From assembly GCF_006547065.1 (NCBI RefSeq), contig NZ_CP041243.1:1-64000 (forward strand): a stretch of 64,000 bases of DNA, given 5' to 3'. This stretch comes from Brevundimonas sp. M20. Lineage in GTDB: Bacteria; Pseudomonadota; Alphaproteobacteria; Caulobacterales; Caulobacteraceae. The notes beneath the pieces were generated by a model. That model saw only the letters and a list, made by a program, of their open reading frames with translations. It was not told where the DNA came from and did not search any database. A program made the translations under genes and the position numbers. Below are positions 36,945 to 49,853 of this stretch, piece after piece; the first letter of the stretch is position 1, and each line of letters starts with the position of its first letter.

Positions 36945-37832
36945 TCAGCCTCGCATCAGACGGCGGCAAAGGTCATCCAGCTGCTCCAGCGTACCGTAGC
37001 GGATGCTGATCTCGCCCTTGCCGCCCTTGTCGGACAGCTGGACCTTCAGGCCCAGGGCGTCGGCCAGATCCTGCTCCAGCGCCGCCACGTCGGCCGAGCC
37101 TTCGCCATCGGCGCGCGGCGCACCGGCGTTTCCGGGCTTGGGCCCTTCGGCTGACCGGCGGGCCAGGGCTTCGGCCTGACGCACGTTCAGCCCCTCGCGC
37201 ACGATCTTGTCCGCCAGATCACCCGCATCGACGGTGTTGATCAAGGCGCGGGCGTGGCCGGCGCTCATCCGGCCGTCGCGCACATAGTCCAGCACCTCGT
37301 CCGGCAGCTGCAGCAGGCGCAGGGTGTTGGCCACATGGCTGCGGCTCTTGCCGACGATGCCCGCGACCGCATCCTGCGTCCGGCCAAACCGGTTCATCAA
37401 CTGCCGATAGGCATCGGCTTCTTCCAGCGGGTTGAGGTCCGCGCGCTGGACGTTCTCGATGATGGCGACCTCGAACACCTCGACGTCGTCCATTTCACGA
37501 ACAACGACCGGCACCTGGGTCAGGCGGGCCATCTGCGACGCCCGCCAGCGGCGTTCACCGGCGATGATCTGCCAGACGCCGTCCTCACCGGGCTGCGAGC
37601 GCACGAGGATCGGCTGCAGAACGCCCTTGTCGCGGATCGAGGCGGACAGTTCCTCAAGGATTTCCGGGGTGAAGATCTTGCGCGGTTGATCCGGGTTAGG
37701 CTTCAGGCTCTCGATCGGCACGATCCGCACGCCCGCGGGCGCCGGAGAACCGTCGACCGGGACGGCTTCCGCCGCCTGTTCGCCCAGAAGGGCTGACAAT
37801 CCCCGGCCGAGGCCGCGCTGACGTTCGCTCAA
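36945..37832 (-). CDS. parB: Chromosome-partitioning protein ParB
   Basis: CTP-dependent DNA clamp that loads at parS and spreads. The 295-aa protein has N-terminal MSERQRGLGRGLSALLG, the ParA-contact segment. The CTP-binding motifs AGERRWRAS (residues 91-99) and ENVQRADLNPLEEA (126-139) are followed by an HTH near 151-175 (RTQDAVAGIVGKSRSHVANTLRLLQ) and a C-terminal dimer domain. The start is TTG at 37832, 29 bp after parA. Four parS sites lie within 6 kb. Confidence 0.97.
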   Translation of the reverse strand: MSERQRGLGRGLSALLGEQAAEAVPVDGSPAPAGVRIVPIESLKPNPDQPRKIFTPEILEELSASIRDKGVLQPILVRSQPGEDGVWQIIAGERRWRASQMARLTQVPVVVREMDDVEVFEVAIIENVQRADLNPLEEADAYRQLMNRFGRTQDAVAGIVGKSRSHVANTLRLLQLPDEVLDYVRDGRMSAGHARALINTVDAGDLADKIVREGLNVRQAEALARRSAEGPKPGNAGAPRADGEGSADVAALEQDLADALGLKVQLSDKGGKGEISIRYGTLEQLDDLCRRLMRG

Positions 37833-37861
37833 GATACGGATTCCGTTCTTCTAATCATTGA

Positions 37862-38674
37862 TCAGGCGGCCTGCTTCAGGCGTTTGCGCTCGCGCGCCAC
37901 CACCTCACGCGCCAGCTTGAGATAGGCCTGGCTGCCCGCGCATTTGAGATCGTAAATCAGCGCCGGCTTGCCGAACGACGGCGCTTCGGCCACGCGCACA
38001 TTGCGCGGAATGACACTGTCATAGACCTTGTCGCCGAAGTGATTGCGCACATCGTTGGCCACCTGCCCCGACAGGGCGCTGCGGCGGTCATACATGGTCA
38101 GGACCAGCCCCTGGATTTCCAGCGCCGGATTCAGGCTCTGGCGCACCATCTCGACGGTCTTCATCAGCTGGGTCAGTCCCTCCAGCGCGAAGAACTCGCA
38201 CTGCAGCGGCACCAGGACGGCGTCGGCGGCGGCCATGGCGTTCAAAGTCAGCAGGTTCAGCGACGGCGGACAGTCGATCAGGACATAGTCATACCGGGTC
38301 TGGCCATCCCGGCCCTGCGCCGCCAGGGCGTCACGCAGGCGGAAGGACCGGCGATCCGCCTGCCCCAGCTCGATTTCCACGCCCGACATGTCGGCGTCTG
38401 CCGGAATGATGAAGAGACCGGGCACGGTCGTCTGCACTGCGGCGTCATCGACTGAGCGGCCGTCCACCACCACGTCGTAGATGGTCACTCGCCGTGTTTC
38501 ACGTGGAACACCCAGACCCGTCGAGGCATTGCCCTGCGGGTCCATGTCGACGATCAGCACCTTCTCGCCGATGGCGGCCAGAGCGGTGCCGAGGTTGATC
38601 GCGGTGGTCGTCTTTCCCACCCCGCCCTTCTGGTTCGAAACGGCGAGGACGCGGGTCTTACCAGTTTTTGACAC
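37862..38674 (-). CDS. parA: Chromosome-partitioning ATPase ParA
   Basis: ATPase that moves ParB-parS complexes. The deviant Walker A KGGVGKTTT is at residues 16-24, followed by VLIVDMDPQGNASTGLG. The 270-aa protein starts at GTG 38674, overlapping the rsmG 3' end by 17 bp. The frame is open upstream but only this start gives the family's N-terminus. A parS-like site, TGTTTCACGTGGAACA, lies inside the coding sequence at 38495-38510. Together with parB this is a complete chromosomal segregation operon. Confidence 0.97.
   Translation of the reverse strand: MSKTGKTRVLAVSNQKGGVGKTTTAINLGTALAAIGEKVLIVDMDPQGNASTGLGVPRETRRVTIYDVVVDGRSVDDAAVQTTVPGLFIIPADADMSGVEIELGQADRRSFRLRDALAAQGRDGQTRYDYVLIDCPPSLNLLTLNAMAAADAVLVPLQCEFFALEGLTQLMKTVEMVRQSLNPALEIQGLVLTMYDRRSALSGQVANDVRNHFGDKVYDSVIPRNVRVAEAPSFGKPALIYDLKCAGSQAYLKLAREVVARERKRLKQAA
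38495..38510. other. parS site (inside parA)
   Basis: TGTTTCACGTGGAACA differs from the palindromic parS consensus TGTTTCACGTGAAACA at one position. Confidence 0.85.
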
Positions 38675-39287
38675 GGCTGATGCCCCGGACAGATACGATA
38701 CGGCCGCGCGGGTCACTGCGCGAGACGGAGAGGTCACTTTTGAATTGCCAGACCTTGCGAGCCTCCGCCACCTCAACCTCGGCCTTTTCGCCCTTCAGGA
38801 ACAATCCCTGGGCGCCGCGCTGTAGATAAGGCTGTGCATAGCCCAACAGCTTCTCCATCGGCGCCACCGCGCGCGCGGTGACGACATTTACGGTAACCAC
38901 ATTGTCCTCGGCGCGGCCGTTGATGACGGTCGCGCGCAGGGACAGGGCGTCGACCACCTCCTGCAGGAACCGGCACCGCTTGCCGAGACTATCGATCAGC
39001 CAGACGTGGCTCTTCGGGTCGGTCTTCAGCATGATGGCCAGAACCACGCCCGGGAAGCCCGCCCCCGCGCCGAGGTCGGCCCAGCTTTTCGCGCCCGGGG
39101 CCAGATCCAGCAACTGAGCCGAGTCCCGGAAATGGCGGCTCCAGACGTCCGGCAGGGTGTCCGGCCCGATCAGATTCATCACCGCATTGGCTTCAGTCAG
39201 ACGAACGACAAAGCGTTCCAGATCGCCCATCTGCGCCGGCGTGGCGTTGAACTCCGCCTGGAAGGCGGCCGCATCATAGGTACTCAC
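38658..39287 (-). CDS. rsmG: 16S rRNA (guanine527-N7)-methyltransferase RsmG
   Basis: Methylates G527 of 16S rRNA (209 aa). Motifs: [35 protein letters not shown] with the SAM loop, and [31 protein letters not shown]. The start is GTG at 39287, overlapping the mnmG stop (GTGA), so the two are coupled. The end overlaps the parA start by 17 bp, as in the classic gidA-gidB-parA-parB string. Confidence 0.96.
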
Positions 39288-41152
39288 GCATCAGCCTCCA
39301 AAGGCCGTGGCGCCTTCTTCACATGCGACAACAGGGCGGTCAGGGCGCCGGGCGTCATGCCCTCGATCCGCCCGGCCTGTCCGAGGGTGCGGGGCTGAAC
39401 GCGGCTCAGCTTCTCCTTCACCTCATTCGACAGGCTGCCGATAGCCGCATAGTCGAGGTCGACCGGCAGGGCGAGCGCCTCTTCCCGACGCAGGGCCTCG
39501 GCATCGGCCGCCTGACGATCCAGATAACCGGCATAGCCTGCGTCGATGGTGATCTGCTCGCGAACCTGCGCCGACCAGCCCGCGATCTGCGGACAGACCG
39601 GCAGGAAGGTGTCGAGCGTCACACCGGGGAAGGGCAGCAGATCGCGGATCGAGCGACGCTGACCATCGGCGTTGACGCGGATTCCGAGCGCCCCCGCCTC
39701 CTTGGGCGTAAACAGCGTTTCACGTGAAACAGCGGTCGCCGCCGACAGTTCAGCGGCCTTCAGCGCGAAAGACTCCGCGCGACTGGAACCGACGACGCCC
39801 GCCTCGACACCCAGTGGGGTCAATCGTTGATCTGCGTTATCGGCGCGCAGGGTCAGCCGGTACTCGGCCCGGCTGGTGAACATCCGGTAGGGCTCGGTCA
39901 CACCCTTGGTGACCAGATCATCGATCATCACGCCGATATAGGCCTGATCCCGACCGAGAATGATCGGGGCCTTTCCGGCGGACGCGCGCGCGGCGTTCAG
40001 CCCCGCCATCAACCCTTGAGCGCCCGCCTCCTCATAGCCGGTCGTGCCGTTGATCTGGCCAGCCAGATAAAGGCCGGGCCGCTTCTTCACTTCCAGAGCA
40101 GGGCTCAGTTCACGTGGATCAACGTAGTCGTATTCGATGGCATAGCCGAAGCGGAACACCTCGACCTGCTCCAAACCCGGGATGGTCCGCAGGAAGGCCA
40201 GCTGGGTCGAGTCGGACACCGAGGTCGAAATGCCGTTTGGATAGACCGTCGGATCATCCAGACCCTCGGGCTCGAGGAAGATCTGGTGCGAGGTCTTGTC
40301 GGCGAACCGCACCACCTTGTCCTCGATGGACGGGCAATAGCGCGGACCCCGGCCGGACAGGTGGCCGCCATAGACCGCGCTCTCGCCCAGGTTCTCGGCG
40401 ATGATCCGGTGCGTCTCTTCCGTGGTGTGGGTCACGCCACAGGTGATCTGGGGCACGTCGATACGTTTGGTCAGGAAGCTGAACGGCACGGGCTGTTCAT
40501 CCGCCGCCTGATGCTCCAGCCGATCCCAGGCGATGGTCCGGCCATCGAGACGCGCGGGGGTGCCGGTCTTCAGCCGCCCCATCTGGAGGCCCGCGCCATA
40601 GAGGTCCGCGGCCAGACCGGTCGAGGGGGCCTCGCCATGGCGACCGGCGGGTGTGCGTTCGTCGCCCTTGTGAATGACCCCGTTCAGGAAGGTGCCGGTC
40701 GTCAGCACAACCGCGCCCGCCGACAGGTGCTCATCACTGTCAGTGATCACGCCGACCACCCGGTCGCCGTCCATGATCAGACCCTCGGCCGTCCCGGCCA
40801 TCAGCTCGAGGTTCGGGGTCTGCGCCAGCTCGGCCTGCATGGCCTCGCGGTACAGGCGTCTGTCGATCTGACTGCGCGGGCCCTGCACCGCGGCGCCCTT
40901 GGAGCGGTTCAGCAGCCGGAACTGGATGCCGGACACATCGCCCAGCCGACCCATGACGCCGTCCAGGGCATCGATCTCGCGCACCAGATGGCCCTTGCCC
41001 AGACCGCCGATGGCCGGGTTGCAGGACATCTCGCCGATGGTCTCGAGCTTCTGGGTCAGCAACAGGGTGCGCGCGCCGGTCCGCGCCGACGCGGCCGCCG
41101 CCTCACACCCGGCGTGCCCGCCGCCGATGACAATGACATCAAAGGATTTCAT
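39284..41152 (-). CDS. mnmG: tRNA uridine-5-carboxymethylaminomethyl modification enzyme MnmG
   Basis: FAD enzyme that with MnmE makes cmnm5U34 on tRNA wobble positions; 622 aa. It has [25 protein letters not shown] at the N-terminus, [21 protein letters not shown] and [27 protein letters not shown]. The start at 41152 gives [11 protein letters not shown]; the frame is open 12 codons further. A parS site lies at 39716-39731 within the gene. Confidence 0.98.
39716..39731. other. parS site (inside mnmG)
   Basis: CGTTTCACGTGAAACA matches the consensus at 15 of 16 positions. Confidence 0.88.
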
Positions 41153-41235
41153 CGCCGGGAGATAGTCTAAACCGGGCCGAAATTCCACCGGCGCCGTGGG
41201 GGTGAAGAGTGCTGGTGAGCAAGGAAGTGAGCCGC

Positions 41236-41251
41236 TGTTTCACGTGAAACA
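41236..41251. other. parS site (mnmE-mnmG intergenic)
   Basis: TGTTTCACGTGAAACA is a perfect parS palindrome in the 146-bp gap between mnmE and mnmG. Confidence 0.95.
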
Positions 41252-41298
41252 CCATGCTCCGCTCACCCCGCTGCTCACCAGCACCGCTCGCTCGCCGC

Positions 41299-42606
41299 CT
41301 ACTTCCCGATGCAGAACGTCGAAAAGACCTCGCCCAGAATGTCCTCCACCCCGATGGCGCCGGTCACCCGGGCCAGCGCCTCGGCCGCTCGTCGCAGGTC
41401 GTCTCCCGCCATCTCCGGCGCCAGATCGAGCGCCCGACGTCCGGCCTCGACCGAGATCAGGGCCTCCTCCAGCCGACGGCGGTGGCGTTCACGGGTGACG
41501 GCCGGAAAGTCCGCGCCGGACAGGTCTCGGGCCAGACGAGCCGCGATCCAGTCGTGCAGGGCCGCCATCCCCTCCCCGGTCGTCGTGCTGACCACCAGCG
41601 CCTCCCGATCAGGCGGCGGGGCGGCGCGGTCGATGTCGGCCTTGGTCAGCACCAACAGGTCCTCGGGCTTCGCATAGTCGGCGGCGACACCCTCGGCGTC
41701 TCCGGGCGCCCGGACCCACAGACGCAGTTCCGCCTGTTCGGCCCGAACGCGCGCCCGGCGAACGCCCTCGGCCTCGACCGGGTCATCGCTTTCGCGCAGC
41801 CCCGCCGTATCGGACAGGGTCACCGCATAGCCGCCGATGACCAGATCCGCATCCAGCACGTCGCGGGTCGTCCCGGCGATGGGGGTGACGATCGCCGCCT
41901 CCCGCGCCACCAGCGCATTGAACAGCGACGACTTGCCGGCGTTGGTCTCGCCGATCAGAACGATGCGATAGCCTTCACGCACCCGCTCGCCCCGTCCGGC
42001 ATCGGCCAGGGCGGCCTTCAGGTCGGCGATCAGTCCGTCCAGAACCGGCCCGGCCGTGCGCGCCAGATTGTCCGGGACCTCTTCATCCGGAAAGTCGATT
42101 TCAGCCTCGACCAAAGCCAAAGCCTTCAGAAGATCGCGGCGGAAACCGGCATAGGCGGCGCCGAGCGCGCCCTCCAGCTGGCCCAGCGCCTGGGCCGCCT
42201 GCGCTGTCGTTTCGGCGTCAATCAGGTCGGCCACGGCCTCGGCCTGGGCCAGATCCATACGGCCGTTCTCGAACGCCCGGCGGGTGAACTCGCCCGGATC
42301 AGCGGGGCGCAGACCCAAGGCCATCAGCGCCCTCGACGCCGCCTCCACCACCGCCCGTCCGCCGTGCAGATGCAGCTCAGCGCAGTCCTCGCCGGTATAG
42401 GAGTTCGGTCCGGGAAAACGCAGGACCAGCGCCTGATCGACGACTCCGCCCTCATGGCTCAGGGTCCGAAGCGACGCCATCCGCGCCCTCAGTCCGCGCG
42501 CGCCGAGACCCGCGAGAGCCGCATCCGTGCCCGGGCCGCTCAACCGCACAATGGCGATCGCCCCCCGGCCCGGCGGGGTGGCGAGGGCGAAGATAGTGTC
42601 ACTCAT
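41299..42606 (-). CDS. mnmE: tRNA modification GTPase MnmE
   Basis: GTPase partner of MnmG, 435 aa. The N-terminal tetrahydrofolate domain begins DTIFALATPPGRGAIAIVRLSGPG, with LHLHGGRAVV. The G-domain has GETNAGKSSLFNALVAREAAIVTPIAGTTRD and DTAGLRES. The C-terminus ends in the catalytic FSTFCIGK. The length is normal. It starts just downstream of a paired inverted repeat element at 42617-42742. Confidence 0.98.
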   Translation of the reverse strand: MSDTIFALATPPGRGAIAIVRLSGPGTDAALAGLGARGLRARMASLRTLSHEGGVVDQALVLRFPGPNSYTGEDCAELHLHGGRAVVEAASRALMALGLRPADPGEFTRRAFENGRMDLAQAEAVADLIDAETTAQAAQALGQLEGALGAAYAGFRRDLLKALALVEAEIDFPDEEVPDNLARTAGPVLDGLIADLKAALADAGRGERVREGYRIVLIGETNAGKSSLFNALVAREAAIVTPIAGTTRDVLDADLVIGGYAVTLSDTAGLRESDDPVEAEGVRRARVRAEQAELRLWVRAPGDAEGVAADYAKPEDLLVLTKADIDRAAPPPDREALVVSTTTGEGMAALHDWIAARLARDLSGADFPAVTRERHRRRLEEALISVEAGRRALDLAPEMAGDDLRRAAEALARVTGAIGVEDILGEVFSTFCIGK

Positions 42607-42616
42607 GGCGTCAGAA

Positions 42617-42742
42617 TCTCCTCCCCGATCTGCGGGGAGGTGGCGCGGCGCGCTTGCGCCGTGACGGAGGGGTCGGCGGCGGCGAGAACGGACAAAGCCC
42701 CTCCACCGCTTCGCGGTCCCCCTCCCCGCGTCGCGGGGAGGA
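42617..42742. repeat. Paired inverted element, tail-to-tail pair, upstream of mnmE
   Basis: The left unit runs TCCTCCCCG...CGGGGAGGTGGC, then a GGCGCG hairpin, then ACGGAGGGGT. The right unit is inverted: CCCCTCCACCGC...CCCTCCCCGCG-TC-GCGGGGAGGA. The pair fills most of the mnmE-DUF6489 gap. Each unit can fold into two hairpins. Confidence 0.8.
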
Positions 42743-42751
42743 CACGGCGGG

Positions 42752-42979
42752 TCACGACTTGATCGCCCCTTCCATCAGGCGGCGGAACTGGTCTTGGGCC
42801 TGAAGGCCGAAGCTGGTCCAGGTCTTCATCAGTTCCTCGGGCTGCATGGCGGCGACATTGGCCTCCATCCGCTTTTGCATCTCGGCGACCATGGCGTCGT
42901 TCAACGGGGTCACATCAGGCAGGCCGAGGAAGGCCCGCGCCTCCGCGGGGGTACAGTCGATCTCGACGTTGATTTTCAT
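42752..42979 (-). CDS. DUF6489 small protein
   Basis: A 75-aa protein: MKINVEIDCTPAEARAFLGLPDVTPLNDAMVAEMQKRMEANVAAMQPEELMKTWTSFG, then a short amphipathic tail. Such proteins (DUF6489) are uncharacterised and common in alphaproteobacteria. The start at 42979 was chosen because the family begins MKINVEIDC; the frame is open further up. The repeat element begins 10 bp after its stop. Confidence 0.85.
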   Translation of the reverse strand: MKINVEIDCTPAEARAFLGLPDVTPLNDAMVAEMQKRMEANVAAMQPEELMKTWTSFGLQAQDQFRRLMEGAIKS

Positions 42980-43042
42980 GGGATCGCTCCAATCTGTCAG
43001 GGACAGTCCTAGACCAATCCGGCCTGCCAAAGGAACCCGAGC

Positions 43043-44032
43043 ATGAGCCTCCCCTCAACCCAATCCGCCGTCCGCTTCGATCACCACGGCGGGGCTGAGG
43101 TTCTGGATCTGGTCGAGGTTCCCGTCCCTTCCCCCGGACCCGGCGAAATCCTGATCCGCAATGTCGCGGTCGGTCTGAACTTCATCGACATCTATCAGCG
43201 CACCGGCCTCTACCCCCTTCCCCTCCCGTCGGGCCTCGGCAAGGAATCCGCCGGCGTGGTCGAGGCGGTCGGCGAGGGCGTCACGCGCTTCAAGGTCGGC
43301 GACCGCGTCGCCACCGCCACCGCCCCGGTCGGCGCCTACAGCCAATTCCACCTGATGCCTGAAACCGCCGCCGTCGCCGTCCCGGACGACATCAGCCTGG
43401 AGGTGGCTGCCGCCGTCATGCTGAAGGGCATGACCGCCGAGTTTCTGGTCAACCGCGCGTTTCACGTGAAACAGGGCGACGAGATCTTGCTCCACGCCGC
43501 CGCCGGGGGGGTCGGCCTGATCCTTGGCCAATGGGCGAAGTCGCTGGGCGCCACGGTGATCGGGACTGTCGGGTCCGAGGCCAAGGCCGAGTTGGCCAAG
43601 GCCCACGGCAGCGACCACGTCATCCTCTATGACCGCGAGGACGTCGCCGCCCGCGTGAAGGACATCACCAAAGGCCGGGGCGTCGCCGTCGCCTATGACT
43701 CCGTCGGTCAGGACACCTTCGAGGCGTCGCTGGCCAGCCTCAAGCGGCGCGGAACCCTGGTCCTGTTCGGCAATGCGTCCGGCCCGGTGCCGCCGTTCGA
43801 TCCCCTGCGCCTGTCGCGCGGCGGCTCGCTTTACGTTACCCGCCCGACCCTGTTCGACTATGTCGCTACAGTGGAAGAACTCGACGCCAGCGCCGCCGCC
43901 CTGTTCGCCGTCATCCGATCCGGCGCGGTGAAGGTCGAGATCGGCCAGACCTTCCCGCTGGCGGAGGTGCGTCAGGCGCATGAGGCTCTGGCCGGTCGGA
44001 AGACAACGGGATCGACGCTGCTGATCCCCTGA
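43043..44032 (+). CDS. Quinone oxidoreductase (zinc-free MDR family)
   Basis: NADPH-dependent quinone/zeta-crystallin-type reductase, 329 aa. The N-terminus has GPGEILIRNVAVGLNFIDIYQRTGLYP, a Qor signature; the Rossmann motif reads HAAAGGVGLILGQWAKSLGATVIGTVG. No zinc ligands are visible, as expected for Qor. A parS site lies in the middle at 43458-43473. It ends at a strong shared terminator with rho. Confidence 0.92.
   Translation: MSLPSTQSAVRFDHHGGAEVLDLVEVPVPSPGPGEILIRNVAVGLNFIDIYQRTGLYPLPLPSGLGKESAGVVEAVGEGVTRFKVGDRVATATAPVGAYSQFHLMPETAAVAVPDDISLEVAAAVMLKGMTAEFLVNRAFHVKQGDEILLHAAAGGVGLILGQWAKSLGATVIGTVGSEAKAELAKAHGSDHVILYDREDVAARVKDITKGRGVAVAYDSVGQDTFEASLASLKRRGTLVLFGNASGPVPPFDPLRLSRGGSLYVTRPTLFDYVATVEELDASAAALFAVIRSGAVKVEIGQTFPLAEVRQAHEALAGRKTTGSTLLIP
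43458..43473. other. parS site (inside the quinone oxidoreductase gene)
   Basis: CGTTTCACGTGAAACA matches the consensus at 15 of 16 positions. It encodes AFHVKQ within the protein. Confidence 0.88.
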
Positions 44033-46375: not shown

Positions 46376-47418
46376 GCCGCTCTCCGCTCGCAGGTGCGCG
46401 GGCAGGCCTTCCAGTCCGCGCGACAGCCGGGACCGTGCGGCGCGACGCCGGTTCGCGCAAGCGCCCCGACGGCCGCCTCGGCCAGTTCGTTGATGAAGGC
46501 CGCCGTCACCCCGACCGCCGGAACCCGCAGATAGGGCGCGACGCCGAGCGTATGCGCCAGCTCGCCGTACTCGATATCGAGCTCAACGAGAGTCTCGACG
46601 TGTTCGGAAACGAAGGCGATGGGAACCACCACCGCGCCCACGCCATCCCTTGCCGCCTGTTCCAGCGCCTCGGGCGTCGACGGTCCCAGCCATTTCATCG
46701 GGCCGACCCGGCTCTGGTAGCAGAGGGCCCAGTCGGTCAGACCCGCCACGGCGGCCACGGCGGCGCAAGTGCTTTCGACCTGCTCCTGATAAGGATCGCC
46801 CTTCTTCTCGACCAGCACCTCGGGGATGCCGTGGGCCGAGAACAGGACCCGCACCGGCCTGCCTCCGGCCTCGGCCAGCTTGTCCCGGATCAGGTCCGCC
46901 TGCGCCGTGACCCAGCCCGGCGCCTCCGGCCAGCAGCAGACGGTGCGGGTGACGCCCGACCCGGCATAGACCTCATTCCAGCGCTTCAGCGAGCTTTCGG
47001 TCGTGGTGGTCGAGAACTGCGGATAGAGCGGCAGAAGCACGATCTCATCCGGCCCGAAGGCGGCGACGTCAGCAGCGGTCTCTTCCGTCAGCGGATGCCA
47101 GTACCGCATGGCGATGAAGGTCTTCACCTCATCCCCCGGCAGGCGCGCGCCGAGCACGGATTCCAGAGCATCCGCCTGCTTCCGGGTCCCTGGCAGCAGG
47201 GGCGATCCTCCGCCCATCAGGGCGTAATTGGCCTGGGCGCTGGTCTCACGACGGCTGGAGATCAGCTTCGCCAGCGGTGTCCGGAACAGGCCCGGCAGGC
47301 CGATGATCGCCGGATCATTGAACAGGTTGAACAGGAAGGGTTTCACCGAAGCCTGATCGTCCGGCCCGCCCAGATTGAACAGGACGACAGCGATACGACG
47401 GCCTTTCACATCACTCAT
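46372..47418 (-). CDS. hemH: Ferrochelatase
   Basis: Inserts iron into protoporphyrin IX, the last step of heme synthesis; 348 aa. RIAVVLFNLGGPDDQASVKPFLFNLF is the N-terminal signature. Catalytic histidine is in VLFSAHGIPEV and the acidic residue in AFVSEHVETLVELD. The C-terminus has Cys at 332, 339 and 343 (PGCRADWKACPRTCE), like the cluster-binding tail of [2Fe-2S] ferrochelatases, which exist in Caulobacter. The start is at 47418 (MSDVKGRR), overlapping hemE by 4 bp. Confidence 0.95.
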   Translation of the reverse strand: MSDVKGRRIAVVLFNLGGPDDQASVKPFLFNLFNDPAIIGLPGLFRTPLAKLISSRRETSAQANYALMGGGSPLLPGTRKQADALESVLGARLPGDEVKTFIAMRYWHPLTEETAADVAAFGPDEIVLLPLYPQFSTTTTESSLKRWNEVYAGSGVTRTVCCWPEAPGWVTAQADLIRDKLAEAGGRPVRVLFSAHGIPEVLVEKKGDPYQEQVESTCAAVAAVAGLTDWALCYQSRVGPMKWLGPSTPEALEQAARDGVGAVVVPIAFVSEHVETLVELDIEYGELAHTLGVAPYLRVPAVGVTAAFINELAEAAVGALARTGVAPHGPGCRADWKACPRTCERRAA

Positions 47419-48461
47419 TGCGCACCGATCCGTTTCAGCACCTGCTCGACATGGGCGACCGGCACATCCGGCATGATCCCGTGGCCCAGATTGAAGATCC
47501 ACGGCCCCTGACCCCAGACCTCGCGCAGTTGGTCCACGCGGCGATCCAGAAGCGGGCCGCCCGTGCGCAGAAGCAGGGGATCGAGCGCCCCCTGGATGGT
47601 CCTGATCTTCTGCACCGCCTGACCGACCGGCAGGGGACAGGCGGTGTCCAGGGCCACGGCCTGAACCTCGACCTCGCGCGCATAGCGTTCGGCCAGCGCC
47701 GCCGAGCCTCTTGGGAAGCCAATCAGGGGAACGGTGACGCCAAGTTCGCGCACCCGCTTCACCAGCTTGATATGCGGCTGCAGGACAAGGCTCTCGAACA
47801 GATCGTCGGGCAGACCCTCGGCCCAGCTCTCGAAGATTTTCAGCGTCTGCGCCCCGGCGTCGGCCTGCATCTTCAGATAGTAGGCGGTGGCCTCGACCAG
47901 CACGTCCAGAACCGCCGCCACCTTCTCCGGCTCCGCATAGGCGTAGGTCCGGGCCTGCGCCCGCTCGCCCTTGCCGATGGTCCGGGCCACGCCGTCTAGC
48001 ATATAGGTCGCCACCGTCCAGGGCGCGCCCGCGAAGCCGATCAGCGCCTTGGACGGATCGAGTTGTTCCCGAACCAGGCTCAGGGTCTGACCAATGGATG
48101 ACAGGGCCTCGCCCGCGCCATCGGCCCTGTCCCGCATGGCCTCGACCGACGGCATCTCGCCCAGCCGGGGACCTTCCCCGGCCTCGAACCAGACGTCCTG
48201 ACCCAAAGCCCGGGGGATCAGCAGGATGTCGGCGAACACGATGGCCGCATCAAAGCCGAACCGGCGCATCGGCTGAAGCGTCGCCTCGGCAGCTTTCTCA
48301 GGATCGTGACAAAACTCGATAAAGCCCGGCGTGGTCGCCCGCAGCGCCCGGTATTCCGGCAGGTAGCGCCCGGCCTGACGCATGAACCATACCGGAGGAC
48401 GAGCGGTCGTCTCCCCGGCCAGGGCTTTCAGGAACAGGGGAGTGTCATTCGAGATCGTCAT
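47415..48461 (-). CDS. hemE: Uroporphyrinogen decarboxylase
   Basis: Removes four carboxyl groups from uroporphyrinogen III; 348 aa. PPVWFMRQAGRYLPEYRALR is the classic signature near the N-terminus; FADILLIPRALGQDVWFE and GFAGAPWTVATYMLDG follow. It is the first gene of the heme operon and faces away from the origin-like region. In Caulobacter hemE transcription overlaps the origin, so its promoter lies in 48462 onward. Confidence 0.97.
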   Translation of the reverse strand: MTISNDTPLFLKALAGETTARPPVWFMRQAGRYLPEYRALRATTPGFIEFCHDPEKAAEATLQPMRRFGFDAAIVFADILLIPRALGQDVWFEAGEGPRLGEMPSVEAMRDRADGAGEALSSIGQTLSLVREQLDPSKALIGFAGAPWTVATYMLDGVARTIGKGERAQARTYAYAEPEKVAAVLDVLVEATAYYLKMQADAGAQTLKIFESWAEGLPDDLFESLVLQPHIKLVKRVRELGVTVPLIGFPRGSAALAERYAREVEVQAVALDTACPLPVGQAVQKIRTIQGALDPLLLRTGGPLLDRRVDQLREVWGQGPWIFNLGHGIMPDVPVAHVEQVLKRIGAQ

Positions 48462-48983
48462 TTGATCGTCGGCTTACCGGGGCGGGGGGACAGGCTCAAG
48501 CCCGGCCCCGTGTCGCACCCTTTCCCTTCCCAAACATTCAAATTTGAAAAGGGTGGAAGGAAGTGGGTTGGGCCGGGGATGGCGGGGACAAGTCGGTCGA
48601 AAAGGCCGCGGACGGACGGCTTGTGCGGATTCAGTCACAGGGCGATCGACAGACCCGGTGGCGCCTGTCGATACCGGGGATAACCATTAACAAGACCTTA
48701 ACAGCGGGCGTTTTCGGGGGTTTGCGCCGGGTGGCCGCCTGGGCGCCGGTTTCGTCGAGTCCGGTTCCTCCACAAGCCGTCCGCCCGGAACCGCCCGCCG
48801 GTGGATGAACGGGCTGAAGACGGACCCTCCCGTCCACCTTCATCCCGCTCGCGACCGGGAACGGGGACGGCTATAGAGATCGGCGCCCGGTCATGAACCG
48901 AACGGCGCCCCGTCCTTTCCACAGGAGTCCCCGTTGAACGGACCGTTTATCCCGATGAGTCTGCGGCGTCGGGGGACCACGCG
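48462..48983. other. Probable chromosomal replication origin (hemE-ppsR gap)
   Basis: The 522-bp gap between hemE and the RP001/PpsR gene is where the origin lies in Caulobacter and Rickettsia. It is the least gene-like stretch of the window and holds a perfect CtrA box, TTATCC sequences related to DnaA boxes on the reverse strand at 48676-48685 and forward at 48947-48952, TCCACA at 48767-48775 and 48916-48922, four GANTC sites (48629, 48757, 48925, 48957), the palindrome TTCAAATTTGAA at 48537-48548, and inverted repeat ATCGACAG/CTGTCGAT (48645-48652, 48665-48672). No consensus DnaA box TTATCCACA is present. Function is inferred. Confidence 0.75.
48687..48701. promoter_or_regulatory. CtrA-binding site in the origin region
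   Basis: TTAA-CAAGACC-TTAA is a perfect match to the TTAA-N7-TTAA CtrA site. In Caulobacter, CtrA bound at the origin blocks replication, so the same role is inferred. Confidence 0.82.
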
Positions 48984-49853
48984 ATGAGCCCCGCGCGTCC
49001 CGCCGGCGCGTCGAAACTCGCCACCTATTTCCATGTCCATCTGGTCTCGGATTCGACCGGCGAGACCCTGAACGCCATGGCCAAGGCCGTGGTGGCCCGT
49101 TTCGACGGGGTCATTCCCATCGAGCACATCTACGCCCTGGTCCGTTCGGACCGGCAGATGGAGCGGGTTCTGGACGAGATCGCCGCCGCCCCCGGCGTTG
49201 TCCTGCACACCCTTGTGGATCGGGAGCTGCGCGAACAGCTGGAAGAAGGCTGCCGCAGGCTGGACATGCCCCAGATCGCGGCGCTGGACCCGCTTGAGAC
49301 GGTGCTGTCCCGCTACCTGGGCGCCGCCCTGGCCCCCCGCGTCGGCGCCCAGCATGCGCTGAGCAATGAGTATTTTGACCGGATCGCGGCGCTGGACTTC
49401 GCCATGGCCCATGACGACGGGCAGGGCACGACGGAGCAGCTGGAGACCGCCGACGTCATCCTGTGCGGGGTCAGCCGCACCTCCAAGACCCCGACCTGCA
49501 TCTATCTGGCCCACCGCGGCATCCGGGCCGCCAATGTCCCCCTGGTCCCCGGACAGGAAGACGGTGAGCGCCTGACACAGCTCAAGCATCCGCTGGTCAT
49601 CGGTCTGACGGTTTCGCCGGACCGTCTGGTCCAGATCCGCCGCAATCGGCTGGATGGTCTCAACGCCAGCCATGCCTCGACCTATATCGACCACGACTCC
49701 GTGCGCGAGGAGACGGTCAAGGCGCGCCGGGCGTTCGAGCGTCGGGGCTGGCCGGTGATCGACGTCACCCGCCGCTCGGTCGAGGAGACCGCCGCCGCCA
49801 TCATCAACGTCCTGAATGAGCGCCGTACCAAACGGGCGGCTGCGTCATGGTAG
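48984..49853 (+). CDS. ppsR: Pyruvate, phosphate/water dikinase regulatory protein (PpsR, DUF299)
   Basis: Bifunctional kinase/pyrophosphorylase that regulates PEP synthase or pyruvate phosphate dikinase; 289 aa. FHVHLVSDSTGETLNAMAKAV opens the domain; the P-loop is CGVSRTSKTPTCIYLA near residues 160-175; NVPLVPG and GLTVSPDRLVQIRRNR follow. It is the RP001 homolog next to the origin in Caulobacter and Rickettsia. The start has in-frame Met at 48984; maf begins 7 bp before its end. Confidence 0.94.
   Translation: MSPARPAGASKLATYFHVHLVSDSTGETLNAMAKAVVARFDGVIPIEHIYALVRSDRQMERVLDEIAAAPGVVLHTLVDRELREQLEEGCRRLDMPQIAALDPLETVLSRYLGAALAPRVGAQHALSNEYFDRIAALDFAMAHDDGQGTTEQLETADVILCGVSRTSKTPTCIYLAHRGIRAANVPLVPGQEDGERLTQLKHPLVIGLTVSPDRLVQIRRNRLDGLNASHASTYIDHDSVREETVKARRAFERRGWPVIDVTRRSVEETAAAIINVLNERRTKRAAASW

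Follow-up and report, generated by a model that had tools for sequence, protein, structure and literature searches.

The gap between the divergent genes hemE and ppsR is very probably the replication origin of this Brevundimonas. The explanation that best fits the data as a whole, and which we regard as highly likely, is a single origin homologous to the Caulobacter origin Cori that depends on weak, cooperatively occupied DnaA sites, is restrained by CtrA, and has lost the second half of its CtrA control. An earlier note on the sequence had assigned an origin to this gap, and that location is supported by gene order at 130 of 136 loci, by parAB and four parS sites, by an array of DnaA- and CtrA-type sites, by an AT-rich stretch, and by the summed GC skew of seven relatives, although not by the skew of its own genome. 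The window referred to throughout is the whole analysed stretch, which opens a single-contig chromosome of 3,315,348 bp and covers its first 64 kb. Among named proteins, those that match its PpsR best come from Brevundimonas.

Layout of the hemE-ppsR gap

The flanking genes encode proteins with URO-D and Kinase-PPPase domains (Table 1), which bears out the proposed position of the gap between hemE and a ppsR homolog. The two genes diverge from the gap, and rho, mnmE, mnmG, parA and parB lie nearby in the window. A neighbourhood of this type is where the Caulobacter Cori is reported to have been mapped (PMC1914354). Within the family, the divergent hemE-gap-ppsR arrangement that borders a Cori-type origin recurs at 130 of 136 loci with 402-568 bp between the genes; at the other six, hemE was not found in the stretch examined. 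The 136 loci include some genomes twice, from two collections. With identical repeats and the six hemE-less loci left out, the 130 gaps yield 109 distinct sequences, all of which were aligned as a family set. Sixty-two distinct gaps with HemE at least 75% identical, the window's gap included, form the Brevundimonas set and were aligned together. A few of these are distant (e.g., L179 and L180), and the 47 distinct gaps of other genera enter only the family alignment and the GGCGCC tally.

Table 1. Coordinates of features in and near the hemE-ppsR gap (window numbering).
Feature	Position	Strand	Basis
parB (36945-37832) and parA (37862-38776)	36945..38776	-	domain search
Four parS sites, 16 bp each, at 38495, 39716, 41236 and 43458	38495..43473	+	
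Two DnaA boxes, one mismatch, between parA and mnmG near parS	38821..38841	-	
hemE (uroporphyrinogen decarboxylase, URO-D), left border	47415..48461	-	PF01208
Very probable origin region, Cori-type, 522 bp	48462..48983		hemE-ppsR gap, gene order, alignment
CTCAAGCCC, possible hemE promoter -35 (CTTGAG), among the most conserved blocks	48495..48503	-	alignments
AT-rich stretch, 67% AT, candidate unwinding element	48522..48551		
Palindrome TTCAAATTTGAA, 12 bp, within the AT-rich stretch	48537..48548		
GGGGA motif pair, W-box-like (read as TCCCC on minus), beginning at 48575 and 48584; the core recurs in place in 42 and 59 of 62 gaps	48575..48588	-	
GGCGCC, place common to nearest relative L032; not conserved in genus	48660..48665		
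DnaA-like site TTATCCCCG, two mismatches, module L; core in 56 of 62 gaps	48675..48683	-	
CtrA box TTAACAAGACCTTAA, perfect, 3 bp from DnaA-like site	48687..48701	+	pattern scan, alignment
GGCGCC; second CtrA box directly after in many relatives, missing in this lineage	48742..48747		
DnaA-like site TCCTCCACA of module R, without its CtrA partner in this lineage; 50 of 62 gaps have the core	48766..48774	+	
DnaA-like site TCATCCACC; core in 17 of 62 gaps	48800..48808	-	
Weak DnaA-like core TCCAC, shared by 38 of 62 gaps	48833..48837	+	
GCTATAG, likely ppsR promoter -10	48870..48876	+	alignment
GGCGCC, largely conserved	48882..48887		
GGCGCC, largely conserved	48904..48909		
DnaA-like site CTTTCCACA, kept across family alignment; 43 of 62 Brevundimonas gaps have the core	48915..48923	+	
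ppsR (Kinase-PPPase; kinase/pyrophosphorylase), right border	48984..49853	+	PF03618

Genes were also thought to point mostly away from the gap. By a crude gene call this is so on the right, where nine of 11 genes run rightward, and it is so on the left for ten of the 11 genes between 36.3 kb and the gap. Across the whole window left of the gap it does not stand (22 genes point right and 19 left), and the leftward bias is limited to the adjoining 12 kb.

No consensus DnaA box had been seen in the gap, and indeed nothing there lies within one mismatch of TTATNCACA; the DnaA-like sites listed for the gap have two mismatches each, and it contains no high-affinity anchor DnaA boxes. By the same one-mismatch limit the G-box (TGATCCACA) is absent from the gap, although we take this element as a feature of the C. 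crescentus Cori rather than as defining the wider Cori type. TTATCC fragments occur on the minus strand within 48675-48683 and on the plus strand from 48947, and TCCACA fragments at 48769 and 48918, as the earlier note had claimed. The TCCCC cores are conserved, but the next base is not A in the window, so that they are only W-like (W consensus TCCCCA). The conserved blocks comprise CTCAAGCCC near hemE, the two GGGGA motifs, GGGGATAA adjoining the CtrA box, TCCACC/ATCCCG, GCTATAG and TCCACAGG.

Over the 62 Brevundimonas gaps, these weak DnaA-like sites form two arrays of opposite orientation. Specifically, TCC(A/C)C cores number 60 plus and 205 minus in the left half and 232 plus and 43 minus in the right half, counts that are non-independent because the gaps are related sequences. 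The window's own left half has five cores, all minus, and its right half is mixed, with four plus and three minus. Dependence on DnaA sites that depart from the consensus, as had been suggested, fits the weak sites of the gap. It is not new in kind, since the Caulobacter Cori is already described with non-consensus DnaA sites, including G- and W-boxes (PMC4468827, PMC4285127).

The expected TTAA-N7-TTAA is present as TTAACAAGACCTTAA. A perfect match to this pattern occurs only six times in the whole genome, against one for the reversed-pattern control, and about 0.001 are expected per 522 bp. The gap holds a CtrA box beside a DnaA-type site, as the Cori type does, and the genome encodes a CtrA that scores above the NCBIfam cut-off. 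Four GANTC sites were likewise found where four had been counted, at 48628, 48757, 48925 and 48957. At least four occur in only 0.35% of 1447 windows of 522 bp, although the positions of the window's four are not kept across the genus in the 62-gap alignment.

Other elements are less uniform. TTGAG stands 18 nt before a TAA in 28 of the 62 gaps and at another spacing in one, and no such TAA is present in 33. Two palindromes had been reported, of which we recover one perfect example of at least 10 bp, TTCAAATTTGAA, and no second independent one. Neither of two loose IHF patterns matches in the gap, but both would also miss the site given for C. crescentus. A 17-nt inverted repeat (48609-48625/48771-48787, 94% complementary) encloses the CtrA box and is present in the window's species. 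It was dropped as a conserved part on its absence from 14 other gaps tested, that of the nearest relative L032 included. The L039 gap has a different inverted repeat, and none of 60 shuffles had one.

These parts could work together as follows. The gap would serve as the single chromosomal origin, homologous to the Caulobacter Cori in place and parts. DnaA would occupy the low-affinity TCC(A/C)C-type sites cooperatively, on two arrays pointing apart, and would open the hemE-proximal AT-rich stretch. Phosphorylated CtrA bound at 48687-48701 would exclude DnaA from the adjoining TTATCCCCG (48675-48683) and in this way restrain replication. An ancestral second CtrA/DnaA pair, the mirror image of the first, probably lay about 60-65 bp rightward, and its CtrA half would have been lost in this lineage. 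Location, parts, conservation and orientation are read directly from the DNA, and the binding, unwinding and repression proposed here are deduced from them.

CtrA boxes and methylation sites across the genus

CtrA boxes with at most one mismatch number two or more in 36 of the 62 gaps, one in 16 and none in ten; the full table has 65 rows, of which three are outgroup rows with two or more boxes each. In the alignments the left box is retained, often with one mismatch, in many gaps although not all. Many relatives have a second box followed by TCTCCACAGG, and the two CtrA/DnaA pairs are then mirror images, usually spaced 60-65 bp apart and 52-53 bp in some gaps. The window's lineage is without this second box: the window (L002) and the loci L032, L035 and L003 each have one perfect box, in the left position. 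Judged from where boxes are present and absent, the direction of change appears to be one of loss, and the window's single box looks like the remnant of a two-box state.

A tree of PpsR and HemE groups nine of the ten rows without a box in a single clade with support of 100/99 (B. bullata, B. terrae, B. diminuta, B. guildfordensis and their kin); the tenth, L044, falls outside it. The CtrA gene is nevertheless present in all 18 genomes searched, with 94-95% identity in the nine that have clade-type gaps. B. diminuta is also reported to have no ShkA and StaR orthologs (PMC5590869). Elsewhere in the genome, a CtrA box TTAATACGACCTTAA stands at 230015-230029; of 18 other Brevundimonas genomes, at least 12 carry it in identical form.

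GGCGCC is abundant in these gaps, with 200 copies over the 62, compared with 32 predicted by dinucleotide shuffles and 66 by the density in the window's genome. The nine rows of the diminuta/bullata/terrae clade have 6-9 copies per gap in largely fixed places, and they also hold more GANTC sites (3-9 per gap, mean 6.2, versus 2.75 in the other 53). Methyltransferase targets are concentrated at the origin of the clade member G126, whose gap, with seven GGCGCC and seven GANTC, ranks top of 51 intergenic stretches in 200 kb for each motif (the next have four and two). Over 100 kb on each side of ppsR, the GC skew of G126 is lowest 5 kb from this gene, and the origin is therefore probably still there, without CtrA boxes.

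As a further test, 29 more genomes supplied 29 gaps, of which seven were identical to earlier ones and 22 were new. Three genomes expected from PpsR to belong to the clade (G089, G142 and G132) have no CtrA box, 7-9 GGCGCC and 6-9 GANTC. G144, which was not expected and lies outside the tree sampling, has no CtrA box, 11 GGCGCC and six GANTC. Among the remaining 18 new gaps, 17 have two or more CtrA boxes and 0-5 GGCGCC. The L307 gap (genome G093), with no CtrA box and only three GGCGCC and one GANTC, could represent a third state.

L157 also speaks against a strict swap of CtrA boxes for GGCGCC: placed as sister of the clade (support 95/78), it has seven GGCGCC and two one-mismatch CtrA matches. 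So does G166 (L043), whose gap carries two CtrA boxes and lacks GGCGCC. In the 200 kb that surround the G166 origin, the motif occurs at 0.55 per kb, versus 2.1-2.9 in two other genomes, as if avoided. Over the 62 gaps, the Spearman correlation between CtrA boxes and GGCGCC is -0.51, a value that we rejected as an independent test because it is driven largely by one clade. GGCGCC triplets were likewise rejected as an origin-unique feature, there being 26-58 per genome in ten genomes.

A candidate enzyme for these sites is described. CCNA_03741 of C. crescentus methylates cytosine in GGCGCC, a methylation undetectable by the method of those authors, and its ortholog in B. subvibrioides, Bresu_0174, is given with no partner nuclease listed (PMC7987155). 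PF00145 proteins are present in 23 of 24 Brevundimonas genomes, and the presence of a methyltransferase therefore cannot be set against GGCGCC. Eighteen of the 30 PF00145 loci read form one family, which we infer to be that of Bresu_0174. The copy in the window's genome, at 424 kb, resembles this family and matches Brevundimonas cytosine methyltransferases. As for GANTC, several such sites in the Caulobacter origin are described by a study that also takes up CcrM in replication control (PMC3973325).

We tentatively advance the hypothesis of a methylation-timed origin in the diminuta/bullata/terrae clade. This clade would have lost all of its origin CtrA boxes (most simply in one event) while keeping CtrA, would have gained a largely fixed GGCGCC array and extra GANTC sites, and might time initiation by methylation of the origin. 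An intermediate position would fall to the window's lineage, whose gap combines a single CtrA box with four GGCGCC and four GANTC.

The GGCGCC sites might instead lie outside origin function as ppsR operators, as leader-RNA hairpins, or as chance products of GC-rich DNA. The clade copies argue against this, since they span about 221-406 of a 472-bp gap, far beyond a leader, and 37 of their 42 motif bases are invariant versus 151 of 430 outside. Such an explanation is somewhat less likely than not. The motif is self-complementary, and two largely conserved copies (48882 and 48904) stand at the likely ppsR start. It is also common in the window's genome (2.1 per kb; Poisson P of about 0.03 for four in the gap), where other intergenic stretches have as many or more: among 138, the gap is one of several with four copies and three have more, although it ties for most GANTC. 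Finally, G166 has few copies genome-wide and none in its gap.

It is unlikely that the gap is the origin but carries its CtrA box only as a fading relic, with timing set mainly by other inputs such as GANTC and GGCGCC methylation. The box is perfect in L002, L032, L003 and L035 alike, and the window's genome has only six in all, which suggests upkeep, even though there is one box here versus two or more in 36 of the 62 gaps, four GANTC and four GGCGCC accompany it, and a related clade has no CtrA box but many such sites.

Position of the probable origin relative to parS and GC skew

The parAB genes and four parS sites lie 5-10 kb left of the gap. Beside parS, at 38.8-40.7 kb, is the densest cluster of one-mismatch DnaA boxes in 755 kb surrounding the origin. 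Both here, at 38821-40677, and in seven relatives, DnaA boxes that are perfect or close to consensus lie by parS and parA rather than in the origin gap. Measured from the leftmost parS of the cluster, a DnaA box with no more than one mismatch stands at a distance of about 325-360 bp in seven of eight genomes, and in five it is perfect; inside the origin gap, a box within one mismatch occurs in two of the eight. Caulobacter parS is described as carrying DnaA boxes where DnaA acts earlier than at those of Cori (PMC6399470).

A GC-skew minimum elsewhere had been named as refuting this location, and the outcome is divided: the minimum does lie elsewhere, at about 160 kb, in the window's own genome, and at the gap in the sum of seven relatives. 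In the own genome, a two-step fit places the low turn at about 160 kb by both GC and keto skew and the high turn at about 1.72-1.74 Mb (49% of the genome), and TA skew allows an origin at 0-50 kb. The antipode of the gap is at 1.706 Mb and that of 160 kb at 1.818 Mb, and the high turn is closer to the former. A dif-like pattern found no match in the 3.3 Mb, and the terminus is therefore placed by skew alone. Third-position skew stays below zero between about -120 and +160 kb in every 20-kb bin except 60-80 kb, and because it is negative on both sides, the own genome alone does not place the origin at the gap. Among the relatives, the summed skew reaches its minimum at -6 kb from ppsR, with a value almost as low at 0 kb (within 40 kb either side), and over 80 kb the skew is greater right than left of ppsR in six of eight genomes, the window's included, with G093 and G106 as the exceptions.

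The mismatch in the window's genome was likely caused by rearrangement. Relative to both genomes compared, gene order has been extensively reshuffled except in a core of about 37-57 kb, and comparable rearrangement of gene order is reported for Caulobacter (PMC4221894). From about 48.7 to 160 kb of the genome, some 110 kb right of the origin mostly has the skew of the left arm, perhaps through a recent inversion or import. Skew is also reported to be insufficient to place the origin in several alphaproteobacteria (PMC1914354).

A rival account, in which the gap does no more than house divergent, CtrA-controlled promoters of hemE and ppsR and replication begins near the skew switch at about 160 kb, is very improbable. 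In its favour, the best step fit of GC skew falls there, and the outer parts of the gap contain a possible hemE -35 and a likely ppsR -10. Against it, the conserved blocks between these promoters are of DnaA and CtrA type and oriented, parS lies beside the gap, the summed skew of the relatives turns at the gap, rearranged gene order outside about 37-57 kb can displace skew, and 140-180 kb has no perfect CtrA box and only scattered one-mismatch DnaA boxes (at most two per 500 bp).

Comparison with known origins

Among the literature matches listed, no title or abstract opening concerned a Brevundimonas origin or GGCGCC at an origin. In Caulobacter, the textbook account ties replication to cell fate through repression of the origin by CtrA. 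Within the single genus Brevundimonas, origin CtrA boxes range from several to none, and CtrA is kept in the box-less clade; the genus thus offers a natural series for testing the role of this link and what replaces it. The GGCGCC cytosine methyltransferase likewise gains a concrete, testable site of action.

The oriC marked by Dam and SeqA also concentrates methyltransferase target sites at the origin. The diminuta clade is alike in this concentration, whereas the motifs and enzymes differ, and the likeness is an analogy. We know of no reader protein for the methylation sites of this clade. The two oppositely oriented arrays seen over the 62 gaps recall the orisome of E. coli oriC, as a likeness of layout rather than homology. 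Unlike oriC, the Brevundimonas origin has no high-affinity R-type boxes, has CtrA boxes inside, and spaces its sites differently.

A marine Caulobacter origin studied by Shaheen et al. in 2009 reportedly has a single CtrA site and is said to have evolved separately. The window resembles it in having one CtrA site at a DnaA site and differs in that an apparent remnant of two boxes is seen here.

In its parts the gap is close to the C. crescentus Cori, which is described with hemE and PPSR/COG1806 borders, CtrA boxes near weak DnaA sites, an AT-rich stretch, GANTC sites and parS nearby (PMC4468827, PMC4285127, PMC1914354, PMC6399470, PMC3973325). Cori is further described as having five CtrA sites, two G-boxes, five W-boxes and an IHF site. 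Compared with that description, the window has one perfect mid-gap CtrA box, no G-box, no match to the two loose IHF patterns, and GGCGCC sites in addition. The window's very probable origin is a variant of the Cori type. Of broader interest is that CtrA boxes have apparently been lost within the genus and that an array of methylation sites accompanies this loss.
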